DNA from: Halorhabdus tiamatea SARL4B
GTDB lineage: Archaea > Halobacteriota > Halobacteria > Halobacteriales > Haloarculaceae
Direction of reading: 5' to 3'
DNA: 64,000 nt
Assembly: GCF_000470655.1 (NCBI RefSeq)
Contig: NC_021921.1
Span: forward strand, 1,426,001-1,490,000
Both the position numbers and the translations under genes were made by a program. Under the pieces are notes generated by a model. The model worked only from the letters and a program-made list of their open reading frames with translations. It had not been told where the DNA came from and searched no databases. Of this stretch, positions 13,194 through 21,252 are shown one piece after another. Position 1 is the stretch's first letter, and every line of letters starts with the position of its first letter.

Positions 13194-14180
13194 TCATTGC
13201 TGGTGGCGAGGATGGATCGCGGACTGGAGTCCGATCCGTTCGATCGCCCGGATGGCCGCATCGATTTGCTCCAGCTGATCGACCAGCCGGGCCAGGGAGG
13301 GATCGACGCCGTCGTCATGGCCTGAGTTGGATGCAATCTCCGTCCCGGTTTCGATCGGCGACAACTCGACATCCTGTCCCGCTGTGGCATCACCTTCGAC
13401 AACGCGTTTCGTCGCCGCTTCGAGCGCGTCTCTGCGGGCTGTCAATAGCTCGGCCACCGTCCGGGCCTGCTCGGCTTCGGGTTCAACCGCCTCGATCACA
13501 CGATCTAGTCGGATGATCCCCGTCGCGATCTGTTCAAGTCGGTCCGCAGCCCGGTGATACTGGGACAGCGCTACCCGATCGATCCCGAGTGCGTCGAGTT
13601 CGCCGAACGCGACGAGTGACCGATTGTAGTGGCGACGGATCAACGCGACCAGCCGCGTCACGTCCGCCATTCGATCACCGACCCGTCCGGACGTCTCCGT
13701 CTCGCCGGTCAGTGACTCGCGGACTGTTTCCTGCATCGTCGTGATGACCGAGACGGTTTGCTCTATCGATTGGCGAACCGACACCGCGGAGGCATCGAGC
13801 ATCGCCCGGACCACGATCTCGTCCGCATCGGCCGCAAGGACTTCAGTGCCGACGAGGCGTCGTGCGATGGTGCGAGCGGCCCGGCGTTGCTCGTCGGTAA
13901 ATGACTCCGTGGCCCGCAGCGTGATCTGCTCGAATCCAGTCTCGTATGCCCCCTGGATCGGTCGCTCGACGGCGTCGACGCTTGACTCCGTGACCGGCAG
14001 CGAGACCGACTCCAGCCCGTCTCCGTCCGTCTGTCGCCCGCGAACGATCAACGAGCCGTCGCGGTGGGTGTACAGTCGGACCGCCTCGCCCGTCTCCAGG
14101 CCCTCCTCGCGTGCCCACTCCTTGGGGACCGAGACCGTGAACGTCGACCCGCCGACCTTCTGGATCTTGCGGGTCTCCAT
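13194..14180 (-). CDS. AbrB-type DNA-binding domain fused to PhoU domain
   Basis: A 328-aa protein. Residues 1-50 form an AbrB/SpoVT swapped-hairpin domain (KIQKVGGSTFTVSVPKEWAREEGL), and the rest is a helical PhoU-like domain (IRRHYNRSLVAFGELDALGI and neighbouring helices). Such fusions are common in haloarchaea and are thought to link phosphate sensing to transcription. It is the last gene of the pst-phoU operon, 28 bases after phoU, which supports a role as phosphate-responsive regulator. DNA targets are unknown; the IR upstream of pstS is a possible candidate. Confidence 0.87.
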   Translation of the reverse strand: METRKIQKVGGSTFTVSVPKEWAREEGLETGEAVRLYTHRDGSLIVRGRQTDGDGLESVSLPVTESSVDAVERPIQGAYETGFEQITLRATESFTDEQRRAARTIARRLVGTEVLAADADEIVVRAMLDASAVSVRQSIEQTVSVITTMQETVRESLTGETETSGRVGDRMADVTRLVALIRRHYNRSLVAFGELDALGIDRVALSQYHRAADRLEQIATGIIRLDRVIEAVEPEAEQARTVAELLTARRDALEAATKRVVEGDATAGQDVELSPIETGTEIASNSGHDDGVDPSLARLVDQLEQIDAAIRAIERIGLQSAIHPRHQQ

Positions 14181-14208: not shown

Positions 14209-14892
14209 TCAGTAGATCAACTCCGGATCACCCTCGACGGCGTACAGCGTCCGGGCGGCGATGTTGACCGCGTGGTCGCCGACGCGTTCGACGTCGCGGA
14301 TCGTCAACAGTACGCTCGCGACGTCGTCGAGGACGGTTTCGAGTGCCCAGGCGTCGATCTCCGGATCGCGTTCCAGCAATTCCCGGGCCACTCGTTCGCT
14401 CGCACGTTGACACATCGCATCCAGGTCGTCGTCTCGCCCGGCGACCGTTCGGCAGGCCCCCGCGTCCTCGGTCTCGTAGGCCGAAAGCGCGTCTTCAAGC
14501 ATGTCGGCCGCCGCCCGACCGATCCCGGAGATGTCGAGTTCCGGGAACGGGTCCGGACGACTCGACAGCGCGTACCGGGCGAGGTTGGTCGACAGATCGC
14601 CGACACGTTCGAGGTCGGTCGTGATCTTGAAGCTGGCGGCGACGAACCGGAGGTCGCCGGCGACCGGCTGTTCCAGCGCGAAGATGTCGATACAGTCGGC
14701 CTCGATGTCGAGGTACCGTCGGTTGACCGTCTCGTCACCCTCGATGACGTCCCGTGCGCGGTCGTCGTCGCCCTCAGTCAGTGCCGAGAGGGCGGCTTTC
14801 AGGCGTTCGAGGACGAGTTCGCCCATCTCGAGGACCGCCGTCCGGAGGTCGGCCAGTGCGTGACGGAACTCCTCTCGTGCCATCGGGTTCAC
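14209..14892 (-). CDS. phoU: Phosphate signalling complex protein PhoU
   Basis: A 227-aa all-helical protein with two PhoU repeats. Characteristic stretches include [37 protein letters not shown] in the first repeat and [23 protein letters not shown] in the second; the E-R-V-G-D cores bind metal. PhoU negatively regulates Pst transport and phosphate signalling. The GTG start at 14892 overlaps the pstB stop (GTGA); an ATG at 14883 (MAREEF) is an equally good start. It belongs to the pst operon. Confidence 0.92.
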
Positions 14893-15725
14893 CCGAACTT
14901 GCCGGTGATGTAGTCCTCGACGCGCTGGTGCTCGGGGTTCTCGAAGATCTTCTCGGTGTCGTCGTACTCGACGAGTTCGCCGCCGGTGAGGAAGACAGCC
15001 GTCGTATCCGAGATCCGGGCGGCCTGTTGCATGTTGTGAGTGACGATGACGACCGTGTACTCCTCGGCGAGCTCCTCGATGAGGTCCTCGATCTTCGAGG
15101 TCGCGATCGGGTCGAGCGCACTCGCGGGTTCGTCCATCAGGAGGACCTCCGGGTCGACCGCGATCGCGCGGGCAATACAGAGTCGCTGTTGCTGGCCGCC
15201 CGAGAGGTCCAGGGCCGATTCGTCGAGTTGGTCCTCGACCTCCTCGAACAGCGCCGCCCGTTTCAGTGCCGTCTCGACCTTCTCGTCCAGGTTCTCGGTC
15301 TCGTCCTGGATGCGCAGGCCGTAGGCGACGTTGTCGTAGATCGACTTGGGGAAGGGATTGGGATGCTGGAAGACCATCCCGATCTTCCGGCGCAGCGCGA
15401 CCGGGTCGACGTCGTCGCCGTAGACGTTCGTCCCTTCGAGGGATAGTTCTCCGTCTATCGTCGCTGTGTCCACGAGGTCGTTCATCCGGTTGATCGACCG
15501 GAGGAAGGTGGACTTCCCACAGCCCGAGGGGCCGATGATCGCCGTCACCTGTTGGTTCGGGATCCCCAGGCTCACACTCTGGAGTGCCTGTTCGTCGCCG
15601 TAATAGACGCTCAGATCACGGGATTCGATGACCGGATGACCCGTCGTCACCGTGGGTCGATCAGTCGATTCCGTCTCGGACGTCTGGACCGTCGTTGCAA
15701 TCGTCGGCGAATCGTGTTCACTCAT
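14889..15725 (-). CDS. pstB: Phosphate ABC transporter ATP-binding protein
   Basis: A 278-aa ATPase of the high-affinity phosphate importer. Walker A is GPSGCGKST, the signature LSGGQQQR is followed by Walker [13 protein letters not shown], and the H-loop is [44 protein letters not shown] is typical of PstB. A roughly 30-residue Thr-rich N-terminal tail precedes the fold. It follows pstA by 16 bases and overlaps phoU by four. Confidence 0.95.
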
Positions 15726-15741: not shown

Positions 15742-17364
15742 TTACTTGTCTCGTTCGTAGCGATTCCGGACGACGACGGCCGTCGCGTTCATGACCAACA
15801 TCAGGGCCAAGAGTACGATGGCGGTCGCCGGGACGACGCCGTGTCTGAACTCCGGCAACGCGCTGGACCTCGCCGCGAAGATCTGGAGGGGCAAGGCGGT
15901 CGCCGACGAGAACAGCCCCTCCGGTGGCGTGTACGTCGTCGTGGCCACTGCGATCATGATGAGTGGCGCTGTCTCGCCGATCGCACGCGCCAGCGCCAGA
16001 ATCGTCCCGGTGAGGATGCCCGGCACCGCTTCCGGGAACACCACGTTCCGGAGCGTCTGCCAGCGGCTGGCTCCCATCCCGTAGGAGGCTTCCCGGATCG
16101 AGTCGGGCACGGCCCGGATCGCCTCCTGTGCGGAGACGACCACGATCGGGAGAATGAGGAGTCCGAGCGTCCCCGCAGCGGAGACGACGATCCCGGTTCC
16201 GAACCCGAGCGTCCGCCGGAAGAGGGCCAGCCCCAACAGTCCGTAGACGACAGAGGGAACGCCCGCGAGGTTCGAGATGTTCACCTCGAGCAGCGTCGCG
16301 AACCGGCCGCCCCACCCCGATTTCGGGGCGTACTCCTCGAGGTAGACGGCCGCGAAGATTCCGATCGGAAAGGCGAGGATCGCCATGAACCCGACGACCA
16401 CGATCGAGCCGACCAGCTGGGGATAGACACCGGCTTCACTCGCCACCCGCCCGTGCCAGGACTCAAGTAGCAGTGTCGGCGTCAAATAGCTCTGGAGGCC
16501 GTCGATGGCGAGCTGTCGTTCGAGCCCGGCACCGACGAGTATGCCACCGATGAGGACGAACGGTCCGGCCACGCCGATTCGACCCTCCGGATCCGTGACG
16601 ACCGTCGAGCCAACGACGTACCCGACCGGTATCACGAACGCCGAGAAGAGCACGACCGGGAACGACGGGTCGATCCCGACGCCGACCAGCCCACCGGCGA
16701 GCACCAGTGTACTCACGAGCGCAGCCGTCGCGGCGATCACCCCACGTCGGCGTGACCAGCGACGGGACACGACCGCACCGAGAATGCCGGCGACCGGGAA
16801 TGTAGTAATTCCGACATACGCGAGCCACGGGGGTGCGATACCGACGAGTGGTCGAACGACGCCGTAGAGCAGGGCAGCGACAGCGAGACCCGCGACGCTC
16901 GCCAACGGGCTCGCGGGGCCGGTGTACGTCCGTTCGTCCGTGACGCGGCCGTAGACACCGACAAGTAGCGGTGGGATGGCACCGAACAGCAGGAAGACGA
17001 GCACGTCGTACGGGCTCACCGCGTCCGCGACGACGTACGTGACGAGGCTCACGGCCAGCGCCCCGAAGACGACGGCGAAGGCTTTCGCGTTCGCGCGCCC
17101 CACGGCCGGATGCCGTCTCGCGTACCACGTGAACGCGGCCGTCGGTGCGACGAGCGTCCCGAAGTACAGGAGGTACCACCGAGCCGACGCCGTCAGCGGC
17201 TGAAACGTGTCGAACGCGATGTAGCCGAACAGGACCAGCAGGGAGACGATGCCGACGAGCGTCGCACCCAGGAGTGTCGCCTCGAAGAGGGACCCCTTGA
17301 GCCGTCGCAGTCGCGTGCCGGTCGCCTGACGCAGCCGGCCGGCACCTTCGCTTTCGGCAGCCAT
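15742..17364 (-). CDS. pstA: Phosphate ABC transporter permease, long form
   Basis: A 540-aa permease, nearly twice the usual 290 residues. The C-terminal half is standard PstA, with [37 protein letters not shown] and [23 protein letters not shown] (EAA loop). The N-terminal ~260 residues add several membrane segments of unknown role, as is common in haloarchaeal PstA. The ATG overlaps the pstC stop (ATGA). Confidence 0.93.
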
Positions 17365-18416
17365 CAGTCGTAGGCCTCCCTGAACCGACGGCGCACGAGT
17401 TCAGCCAGAATGTTCATCGTGAGTGTGATCGCGAACAGTGTCATGCCGAGCGCGAACATCGCTTCGTAGGTGGGTCCCGTCCCGAGCGAGTCCGCCCCGG
17501 CGATCTGTACCATCGCCGCCGTCATCGTCTGACTCGACTCGGCGAGGTTCTTGAGAACGTCCGGGTAATAGGGCATCTGCGGGCTCATCCCCATCGCCAT
17601 CGTCACCGCCATCGTCTCCCCGATCGCCCGGGACAGCGCGAGGACGTACGAGGCGACGATGCCCGAGGTGGCCGAGGGGACGACGACCTTCGTCGAGACG
17701 TCGAACTTCGTCGATCCCAGTCCGTAGGCGGCCTCCCGAAGGCTGTCGGGAACCGCACTGAGTGCGTCTTCGCTGATCGAGGAGACCATCGGGATGATCA
17801 TGATCCCGACGACGATGCTCGCCGAGAGCGCGTTGAACGTCCGCAACGACGGGACGACGAACGTGAACTCCGGGAGTGCGAAGACGTATCCCGACAGCAC
17901 CGGGAGCCACTCGGGAACGGCGAGCAGCTCGATTCTCGACGGGATGATCGTGGCGTTGATCGGCAGAACGCTGTCGATCAGCGGTGTCACGTAGACGAGC
18001 GCCATGTACCCGTAGATGACCGTGGGGACGCCGGCGAGGACCTCGAGGGCCGGTTTCAGAACCGATCGCACGCGGTCGCTCGCGTACTCACTCAGGTAGA
18101 TCGCCGCCGCCAGCCCGACCGGCAACGCGATGAGCGCCGAGCAGATGGTGACGATCAGCGTCCCGCTCACCAGGGGGAGGACGCCGTACTCACCGGCGAT
18201 CTTCGGACTCCAGTTCGTGCCGGTGAAGAAGTCGATCGGCGAGATCTCGCTCCAGAACGTGAGTGCGTTCGCCGAGAGCGAGAGGATGATACCCACGGTC
18301 ACGAGGATCGTGAGCACGGCACTCCCCGCGATCAGCCACCTGTAGAAGCGCTCCTTGCGGACCACGAATCGGTCCCGCTGGAGCGGATCAGACGTCGAAT
18401 TCGGTTGGTTGCTCAT
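17364..18416 (-). CDS. pstC: Phosphate ABC transporter permease
   Basis: A 350-aa permease with about six membrane segments. PstC hallmarks include SPKIAGEYGVLPLVSGTL, YASDRVRSVLKPALEVLAGVPTVIYGY and REAAYGLGSTKFDVSTKVVVPSATSGI (EAA loop). It pairs with PstA to form the phosphate channel. It lies about 50 bases downstream of pstS and overlaps pstA by one codon position. Confidence 0.94.
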   Translation of the reverse strand: MSNQPNSTSDPLQRDRFVVRKERFYRWLIAGSAVLTILVTVGIILSLSANALTFWSEISPIDFFTGTNWSPKIAGEYGVLPLVSGTLIVTICSALIALPVGLAAAIYLSEYASDRVRSVLKPALEVLAGVPTVIYGYMALVYVTPLIDSVLPINATIIPSRIELLAVPEWLPVLSGYVFALPEFTFVVPSLRTFNALSASIVVGIMIIPMVSSISEDALSAVPDSLREAAYGLGSTKFDVSTKVVVPSATSGIVASYVLALSRAIGETMAVTMAMGMSPQMPYYPDVLKNLAESSQTMTAAMVQIAGADSLGTGPTYEAMFALGMTLFAITLTMNILAELVRRRFREAYD

Positions 18417-18465: not shown

Positions 18466-20481
18466 CTATCGAGTGAACTCGTAGTCGCCGGCGATGCCCG
18501 CTTCGAGGTTCGCGAGGTTGTTCTCGACCATCTCCTGGCTGGACGGGACGTAGCCGATGTCCTCGGCGATGTAGTCCTCGTCGGCCTCGTTGATGTAGAA
18601 GCGGATGTACTCCTGGAGGTGGGGCTTCTCCTGGAGCTTGTTCATGTTGGCGTAGAAGAACAGTGGACGGGCAAGCGGGTAGTTCCCGCTCTGTGCGCCT
18701 TCGAGGCTCGGCTCGATCGGGTCGCTGCCACCTTCGCTCAGACTGAGTGCCTTCACGGAGTCGGGATTGTTCGTGTAGTAGGCGAAGGGCAGATAGCCAA
18801 GCGCGTACTCGTTGCCAGCGACGCCTTGCGCGATCAGATTGTCTTCCTCAGTCCCTTCGAAGTCACTGCGGATCGGCTGGTCCGCCTCGGTCTCGCCGAT
18901 GACCGACTCCGTGAAGTAGTCGTAGGTGCCCGAGGTGCTTGCCGGTCCGTAGAGATCGAACGGTTCGTCCGGCCAGTCGGAGTTGACGTCACTCCACAGT
19001 TCGGGCGCGGTGTCCGGCGACCAGATCTCTCCCAGGTCCTCTAAGGAGATCTCGTCGATCCAGTCGGCATCGTTGTTGACGACCACGGTCAGCGCGTCCT
19101 GGGCGATGTAGAATTCGACCGGTTCGATGCCGTTGTCACGGGAGCGCTGGAGTTCTTCGTCCTTGATCGGGCGACTCGCGTTGTTGATGTCGCTGTCGCC
19201 GGGGATGAAGACGTTGTTGAAGCCACCGCCACTGCCGTCGGGTGTGATGTTGAAGCCGACGCCGTCACCGTACTGCTCGTTCCACAGTCGGGACGTCTCC
19301 TGGGCGACCGGATACACCGTGCTGCTCCCCGAGATTCGGATGTCCCCCGAGAGGGACTCTCGGTCGACGTCTGTGCCGCTGTCGTCGCTGTTGTCGTTCC
19401 CGTATTCGTAGTCGCCGGCGATGCCCGCTTCGAGGTTCGCGAGGTTGTCCTCGACCATCTCCTGGCTGGACGGGACGTAGCCGATATCTTCGGCGATATA
19501 GTCCTCGTCAGCTTCGTTGATGTAGAAGCGGATGAACTCCTGAAGGTAAGTCTTCTCCTGGAGTTTGTTCATGTTAGCATAGAAGAACAGTGGACGGGCA
19601 AGCGGGTAGTTCCCGCTCTGTGCGCCTTCGAGGCTCGGTTCGACCGGGTCGCTGCCGCCCTCGCTGAGGCTGAGCGCTTTGACTGAGTCCGGATTGTTCG
19701 TGTAGTAGGCGAACGGGAGATACCCGAGAGCGTACTCGTTGCCCGCGACGCCCTGGGCGATCAGGTTGTCCTCTTCGGTTCCTTCGAAGTCACTCCGGAT
19801 CGGCTGGTCCGCTTCAGTCTCACCGATGACTGCCTCGGTGAAGTAGTCGTAGGTACCCGACGTACTCGCCGGCCCGTAGAGGTCGAACGGTTCGTCCGGC
19901 CAGTCGGAGTTGACGTCACTCCACAGTTCGGGCGCGGTGTCCGGCGACCAGATCTCTCCTAGATCTTCCAGGGAGATCTCGTCGATAAAGTCGGCGTCGT
20001 TGTTGACGACCACGGTGAGTGCGTCCTGGGCGACGTAAAATTCGACCGGCTCGATGCCGTTGTCGCGGGAGCGCTGGAGTTCTTCGTCCTTGATCGGGCG
20101 ACTCGCGTTGTTGATGTCGCTGTCGCCGGGAATGAAGACGTTGTTGAAGCCACCGCCGCTGCCGTCGGGCGTGATGTTGAAGCCGACGCCGTCGCCGTAC
20201 TCCTCGTTCCACAGCCGCGAGACCTCCTGGGCGACCGGATACACCGTGCTGCTCCCCGAGATTCGGATGTCTCCCGAGAGGGACTCACGGTCGGCGGTCT
20301 CCCCATTTTCGGTGCCGTTTTGGCCGCCGTTTTCGTCGCCGTTCCCGCCCGAGTTGTTTCCGTCCTCGGTCGTGTCGCTCTCTCCGCTACACCCGGCCAG
20401 TGCCGTGGCCCCGAGTGCGCCGGCCGAGAGGATGAATTTCCGCCGTGATGCTTTGCCCGGACGCGTCGAATCTCGCGTCAT
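18466..20481 (-). CDS. pstS: Tandem-fused phosphate-binding protein (two PstS domains)
   Basis: A 671-aa phosphate-binding lipoprotein built of two nearly identical PstS domains, about twice the usual length. A twin-arginine signal (ASRRKFILSAG) and lipobox ALAGC precede an Asn/Gly-rich linker. Each domain begins DRESLSGDIRISGSSTVYP, and each keeps the phosphate-contact motifs SGSST, SRPIKDEE and SGTYDYF. I count about 10 differences in 296 aligned residues. A 10-residue acidic linker joins them. I chose the ATG at 20481 over a TTG at 20484. First gene of the pst operon. Confidence 0.93.
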   Translation of the reverse strand: MTRDSTRPGKASRRKFILSAGALGATALAGCSGESDTTEDGNNSGGNGDENGGQNGTENGETADRESLSGDIRISGSSTVYPVAQEVSRLWNEEYGDGVGFNITPDGSGGGFNNVFIPGDSDINNASRPIKDEELQRSRDNGIEPVEFYVAQDALTVVVNNDADFIDEISLEDLGEIWSPDTAPELWSDVNSDWPDEPFDLYGPASTSGTYDYFTEAVIGETEADQPIRSDFEGTEEDNLIAQGVAGNEYALGYLPFAYYTNNPDSVKALSLSEGGSDPVEPSLEGAQSGNYPLARPLFFYANMNKLQEKTYLQEFIRFYINEADEDYIAEDIGYVPSSQEMVEDNLANLEAGIAGDYEYGNDNSDDSGTDVDRESLSGDIRISGSSTVYPVAQETSRLWNEQYGDGVGFNITPDGSGGGFNNVFIPGDSDINNASRPIKDEELQRSRDNGIEPVEFYIAQDALTVVVNNDADWIDEISLEDLGEIWSPDTAPELWSDVNSDWPDEPFDLYGPASTSGTYDYFTESVIGETEADQPIRSDFEGTEEDNLIAQGVAGNEYALGYLPFAYYTNNPDSVKALSLSEGGSDPIEPSLEGAQSGNYPLARPLFFYANMNKLQEKPHLQEYIRFYINEADEDYIAEDIGYVPSSQEMVENNLANLEAGIAGDYEFTR
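18478..19365 (-). repeat. Second (C-terminal) PstS repeat unit
   Basis: An 888-bp unit encoding the C-terminal PstS domain, aligned to 19405-20292 at a constant 927-bp offset. The two copies share long perfectly identical stretches, separated by patches carrying several synonymous changes. Confidence 0.92.
19405..20292 (-). repeat. First (N-terminal) PstS repeat unit
   Basis: An 888-bp unit encoding the N-terminal PstS domain, partner of 18478-19365. Identity is visibly patchy: for example the stretch around 19595-19640 is identical to the other copy, while the next 60 bases carry many silent changes. This suggests gene conversion after an older duplication. Confidence 0.92.
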
Positions 20482-20514
20482 CAACAGAACGGGCGGGAGA
20501 TTTGACTAAAGGGG

Positions 20515-20523
20515 TTTATAATA
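20515..20523 (-). promoter_or_regulatory. Putative TATA box of the pst operon
   Basis: On the minus strand TATTATAAA lies with its centre about 38 bases before the pstS ATG. This places the likely transcription start about 10 bases upstream of the codon. Position and composition only. Confidence 0.5.
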
Positions 20524-20577
20524 GGTGTACGGCCTGCTATTGGGTGATACTGACCGATATGAGCCGCCTGGAGTGGT

Positions 20578-20696: not shown

Positions 20697-21084
20697 CTAA
20701 ATTTCGGCCAGCCGTCGCTCCATCTCACGCTCGACCCAGTCTTCGAGGGCCGCTGTCGGCCTGTCGACGTCTGGTGCCCACTCGTCGAAGAACCCGGACG
20801 TATCGAGGAAGGACACCGCTCCGTAGATGGCTTTCCAGTCGTCGAACCCCGCAGGGAGTGTCCCTGCCTGTTCGCGGTAGCCCGCTCGCAATGCGTCGAG
20901 AAGTTCGGTGGGGCTGTTCTCGCCGGGGTCGGCGAGTAACTGCTCCTGGGTCCGGCGGAGCTCCCGCACCGGGTCGCCGGCGTGGGCGTCCTCCCAGTCG
21001 ATGAGCCCGGTCCCGTCCGCGCGCAGCAACGTGTTCCCTTGCGTGACGTCGCCGTGGACGAGGACTGCCGGTGCCGCCGCCGGT
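20697..21084 (-). pseudogene. C-terminal remnant of an aminoglycoside-phosphotransferase-like kinase
   Basis: About 128 residues match the C-terminal lobe of the APH/choline-kinase fold. The catalytic loop LVHGDVTQGNTLL and the metal-binding LIDWEDAHAGDPVREL are both present, followed by family-typical helices to the stop. The N-lobe with the nucleotide-binding region is absent. Just upstream the frame runs into a different gene, the zinc ribbon on the same strand in another frame, so the N-terminal residues of the open frame are shadow sequence. It is best read as a deletion remnant rather than a working kinase. Confidence 0.7.
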
Positions 21085-21252
21085 TCAGGGGATGACCGAG
21101 TCGAGCGCCGAGTGTGCCGACCCCAGAACTGTCTCTTCGAACTCCTCGTTGCCACACACCTCACACTCCTCGGGCGGGCCCTCGCGGACGTGGTTGACGA
21201 TCGATCGCGTCTGGACGTTTCCACATTGGGTACATCGCCACTCTTTCGTCAT
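21085..21252 (-). CDS. Small zinc-ribbon protein, 55 aa
   Basis: The frame runs from ATG 21252 to TGA 21085 and encodes a 55-aa protein starting MTKEWRCTQCGNVQ. Two CxxC pairs (CTQC and CEVC), 20 residues apart, make a rubredoxin-like zinc ribbon, with an HVREGPPEEC loop between. It was missed by longer-ORF searching because of its size. It abuts the kinase remnant immediately downstream. The partner or target is unknown; such ribbons in haloarchaea are often nucleic-acid or protein adaptors. Confidence 0.72.
   Translation of the reverse strand: MTKEWRCTQCGNVQTRSIVNHVREGPPEECEVCGNEEFEETVLGSAHSALDSVIP

Follow-up and report, generated by a model that had tools for sequence, protein, structure and literature searches.

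Why should the phosphate receptor of a pst operon in Halorhabdus tiamatea carry two binding domains in one chain when, to our knowledge, substrate-binding proteins normally have one domain per chain unless they are fused to the permease? The window, a 64,000-nucleotide stretch of the H. tiamatea SARL4B genome, contains a tandem pstS gene encoded together with pstC, pstA, pstB and phoU, and we consider it reasonably probable that its product is a two-headed, lipid-anchored phosphate receptor serving one PstC-PstA-PstB importer. The relevant features of the locus are:

20505..20525, minus strand: TATA-like element CCTATTATAAACCCCTTTAGT, common to Halorhabdus and Halomicrobium pst promoters
18466..20481, minus strand: tandem pstS, signal, lipobox and two PstS domains, 671 aa (ORF, translation, Pfam/NCBIfam)
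20389..20481, minus strand: Tat-type signal peptide with RR and lipobox Cys31, Halorhabdus-type (sequence comparison)
20293..20388, minus strand: acidic linker 1 (sequence comparison; AlphaFold pLDDT <50 up to residue 61)
19402..20292, minus strand: PstS domain 1, membrane-proximal (repeat alignment, dS/dN, AlphaFold)
19366..19401, minus strand: 12-residue inter-domain linker GNDNSDDSGTDV (alignment; pLDDT <50 at residues 363-371)
18469..19365, minus strand: PstS domain 2, membrane-distal (repeat alignment, dS/dN, AlphaFold)
17364..18416, minus strand: pstC, Halomicrobium-like (89-90% protein identity)
15742..17364, minus strand: pstA with a long N-terminal extension, Halomicrobium-like (87%, protein comparison)
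14889..15725, minus strand: pstB (comparison with the second-operon pstB)
14209..14892, minus strand: phoU, native Halorhabdus type (91-92% to G072 and G073)
13194..14180, minus strand: AbrB-domain (PF04014) regulator, native type (Pfam, comparison)

The tandem gene starts with the ATG at 20481, directly preceded by an in-frame TTG (20484-20482), and ends at 18466. The preliminary description had proposed a fusion of two PstS domains in a Tat-exported lipoprotein, and both points were borne out: within the single minus-strand ORF, PF12849 (Pfam) matches twice and TIGR02136 (NCBIfam) covers two stretches with 450.3 bits against a cut-off of 206.6, while the twin arginines at residues 13-14 and the lipobox cysteine at residue 31 predict Tat export and lipid anchoring. 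The domains start at residues 64 and 373, giving a repeat offset of 309 aa (927 nt). They are 95.7% identical as proteins, differing at 10 amino acids within the shared domain and in the final residues, in agreement with the roughly ten differing positions first counted. The phosphate-contact motifs are indeed kept in both domains, as all six phosphate-site motifs are present in each copy, SGSSTVYP, DGSGGGF, DINNASRP and STSGTYDYF being identical in the two, and the key columns of the phosphate site are invariant across the 23 relatives compared. Sequence analysis thus confirms a Tat-type lipoprotein with two complete, phosphate-competent-looking domains. The description of the domains as nearly identical applies to the protein; it does not extend to the DNA, where identity is 90.5%, 62 codons have changed silently and the mean dS is 0.46. 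AlphaFold predicted both PstS folds with confidence and the short linker between them (residues 363-371) with low confidence, and the pTM of 0.50 leaves the relative domain orientation unfixed; together with the linker pLDDT below 50, this is as expected for two independent beads. The best solved-structure match of the domains by Foldseek was 4JWO (other PstS structures also matched), and the E. coli PstSCAB cryo-EM entry 9k3x was among the matches listed.

Is the tandem real, and how old is it? The two domains differ by dS 0.457 and dN 0.026 (dN/dS 0.056, Nei-Gojobori), and either of them differs from the single Halomicrobium PstS by dS 0.48-0.52. Given the inter-domain dS, the duplication is old and a recent one is ruled out; moreover, a dN/dS of about 0.06 at this divergence indicates that both domains have long been under strong constraint. 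Hence, the near-identity of the proteins reflects lasting purifying selection, rather than recent copying or recent conversion. Old divergence and lasting constraint also argue strongly against a trivial assembly artefact. The notion that an assembly or sequencing error joined two pstS copies draws on their length and similarity and on the fact that the assembly is known without its reads, but the copies differ at about 9.5% of bases in a strongly silent pattern, the inter-domain linker sequence is unique, the replicon of 2,815,791 bp lies in one contig (3,146,160 bp for the whole genome) and the same architecture occurs in an independent complete genome, so that we regard this explanation as extremely improbable.

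The windowed alignment of the two repeats showed that silent differences between them are patchy around their mean. The alternation noticed earlier, between identical blocks and blocks with silent changes, therefore exceeds chance (variance/mean 1.56 in 20-codon blocks, permutation p = 0.007), while the control pair of domain 1 and Halomicrobium showed no such clustering (0.26, p = 0.98). Its reading as gene conversion between the copies fares less evenly, since the patchy silent sites favour it but the copies have not been homogenised, as their dS shows. Two further statistics depend on the site set and the reference sequences chosen: for the longest stretch of polymorphic sites in common, p ranges from 0.001 to 0.11, and for the runs test, z ranges from -2.2 to -3.7. 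Silent differences between domain 2 and Halomicrobium are clustered too (p = 0.013), suggesting that domain 2 itself may be mosaic, and a control pair of two Halomicrobium pstS sequences was also clustered, so that the test responds to any recombination or to local constraint. Gene conversion is documented for the polyploid haloarchaeon Haloferax volcanii (PMC8223754). Taken together, past conversion between the two PstS domains appears moderately supported. In a separate comparison, the pstS genes of Halorussus halobius (L045 5872-7119) and Halomicrobium katesii (L036) showed very few silent differences over their 3' two thirds, which suggests a recent exchange between these genera.

Could the two domains have divided their labour, differing in affinity, in ligand (phosphate versus arsenate or another oxyanion) or in docking, for example if one mainly supplied transport while the other served for sensing or storage? 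Domain 2 has accumulated 6-9 amino-acid changes against 2-3 in domain 1, a difference that is not significant, and relaxed selection on domain 2 shows as no more than a trend (Fisher p 0.05-0.7 across outgroups); domain 2 may nonetheless be the less constrained of the two. A few of its changes affect conserved residues (F317Y, with F in 38/38 relatives, and V88T), as a functional split would lead one to expect. However, the binding motifs are identical in both domains, the asymmetry lacks significance and the domains of the Halosimplex tandem described below show none, and we consider a division of labour quite unlikely.

How often has such a receptor arisen? Overlapping searches of 146 genomes of the family and 392 of the order (about 444 haloarchaeal genomes in all) returned full-length tandem matches in H. 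tiamatea and Halosimplex aquaticum only. They thus yielded one further haloarchaeal tandem (L035 5947-7965), and all the other large ORFs retrieved from those flagged were single-domain. A query across the domain junction, run on 393 genomes that were a partial draw of the phylum, was matched over the junction in the H. tiamatea genome only; Halosimplex, absent from that output, was probably outside the draw. A literature search found no description of a tandem or fused PstS, its only match being unrelated. Within the genomes of the phylum that were searched, the arrangement is therefore a rare one of well-known parts. The Halosimplex protein shares architecture, length and short linker with that of H. 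tiamatea, but its domains are 90.9% identical and its origin is independent: the two tandems stand apart in the trees, and the AU test rejected both one ancient tandem common to H. tiamatea and Halosimplex (p = 2e-7) and a single origin with domain 1 paired to domain 1 (p = 1e-6). On these phylogenies, the fusion happened at least twice in haloarchaea. A further topology, in which domain 1 groups with Halomicrobium instead of with domain 2, as if two alleles had been joined, was disfavoured, not clearly rejected (p = 0.056). The Halosimplex tandem carries a stronger conversion-like pattern, with 34-36 consecutive silent sites (p < 0.0001), and, unlike in the H. tiamatea operon, a third, separate pstS stands beside pstC. 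Between the tandem and this third gene lies an ORF (L035 8186-9610) that by eye is IS66-like and transposase-like. Elsewhere in the sample, the pstS of MAG QS_5_68_33 (L051 5887-7088) runs over two overlapping frames, probably because of a frameshift or assembly error.

On plasmids of Halorussus aquaticus and H. limi (L038, L076), two similar pstS genes precede one pstC-pstA-pstB set, unfused and each with its own signal peptide. With the third Halosimplex copy, this pair indicates that tandem pstS duplication is recurrent, and an unfused adjacent pair of this kind is likely to be the intermediate toward fusion. The same observations lend weight to a simpler explanation, in which duplication merely raised the amount of receptor, fusion was incidental and two separate receptors would serve equally well: the Halorussus copies have a similar divergence (dS 0.55) and a dN/dS of 0.049 while remaining separate, and Halosimplex keeps its additional copy. 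Fusion arising at least twice, with both fused domains constrained, speaks against dosage only, although it is compatible with dosage all the same; we regard this explanation as unlikely, yet the most serious competitor of a two-headed receptor.

Where did the tandem come from? In five of the six other Halorhabdus genomes (G069-G073), a clearly different PstS-PstC-PstA set lies between the same flanking genes, and the pst locus of the sixth (G068) is cut off by a contig end. H. tiamatea PstC and PstA share 87-90% identity with their Halomicrobium equivalents, against 29-39% with the same-locus proteins of H. utahensis and G072 (29-30% for PstC); PhoU, by contrast, matches its Halorhabdus counterparts at 91-92%. 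Both copies of mature PstS are likewise Halomicrobium-like, and the end of the inter-domain linker resembles the Halomicrobium N-terminal linker DDSTVDRASLSG, whereas the promoter region and the signal peptide, the latter near-identical to that of the same-locus H. utahensis protein, are of Halorhabdus type and unlike Halomicrobium. This places the 5' junction inside linker 1, at about 20299-20384. At the other end, pstB is a mosaic, with a tract of about 430 nt (14952-15383) that in nearly all blocks is 90-100% identical to the second-operon pstB (G000:C2:732424-733179), suggesting gene conversion between the two pst operons. Hence, the PstS-PstC-PstA cassette appears foreign to the genus at this locus, a related lineage's version having been swapped in. 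Most flanking genes differ from the nearest Halorhabdus by dS 0.13-0.40 (outliers are an MFS gene, 0.64-0.66, and the AbrB-domain gene against G073, 0.60); the higher inter-domain dS suggests that the tandem predates its transfer into Halorhabdus, by a dating that is rough, being distorted by conversion and by imported alleles. A donor carrying tandem PstS was not found among the genomes searched. The operon thus offers a readable archaeal cassette replacement, with identifiable junctions inside pstS and pstB.

PstA comprises 540 aa, about 290 of which precede the permease domain, and Halomicrobium PstA has the same long extension (87% identity over 539 aa); the AbrB-domain regulator is PhoU-like by our own reading. 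An APH-family ORF (20697-21224) covers only profile positions 164-230 of 239 and is probably a gene remnant. At that site, a 7TM histidine kinase gene is present in the relatives G072 and G073 but missing from H. tiamatea. The TATA-like element occurs nowhere else in the genome, even when 2 mismatches are allowed. We infer that the tandem operon is induced by phosphate starvation.

How would the protein work? The single permease pair originally noted holds for this operon, which encodes one PstC, one PstA and one PstB; it does not hold genome-wide, since a second complete pst operon exists elsewhere, with its own single-domain PstS. In type I importers, one receptor docks on the permease at a time. 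We propose that adjacent pstS copies were fused in frame when the stop codon of the first and the signal peptide of the second were lost, that both domains were then kept by purifying selection with occasional gene conversion, and that the cassette (two mature PstS domains, PstC and PstA) replaced the genus's own by homologous recombination, the native promoter, signal peptide and PhoU being retained. Each domain would bind phosphate independently and alternate in docking on PstCA, each anchor thus holding two loaded receptors close to one permease; higher phosphate capture under starvation is plausible. More broadly, haloarchaea may repeatedly evolve two-headed receptors with a doubled load per anchor, the cassette moving from one genus to another by allele replacement in which the promoter, signal peptide and PhoU of the recipient are retained, a joint reading that we advance tentatively and with less confidence than the two-headed receptor itself. 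A near-identical, constrained receptor pair that arose independently in two genera is a natural test of whether receptor number and tethering limit ABC import.

Compared with known PstS proteins (TIGR02136/PF12849; 4JWO), the H. tiamatea receptor is alike in family, motifs, fold, lipoprotein export and pstSCAB-phoU operon, but has two domains where the usual PstS has one per chain. The proposed working mode has a parallel in GlnPQ, in which, as in the tandem PstS, two binding domains with a short flexible linker serve one importer. The tandem domains of GlnPQ bind independently of each other, and transport depends on linker length, a longer linker slowing it (PMC8025302). The GlnPQ domains have different ligand specificities and are joined to the permease, whereas those of the tandem PstS are near-identical, phosphate-type and part of a separate lipoprotein, PstC and PstA being separate ORFs. 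Hence, the tandem PstS may work like GlnPQ, yet it is not a member of that group, since it lacks the fusion to the permease.
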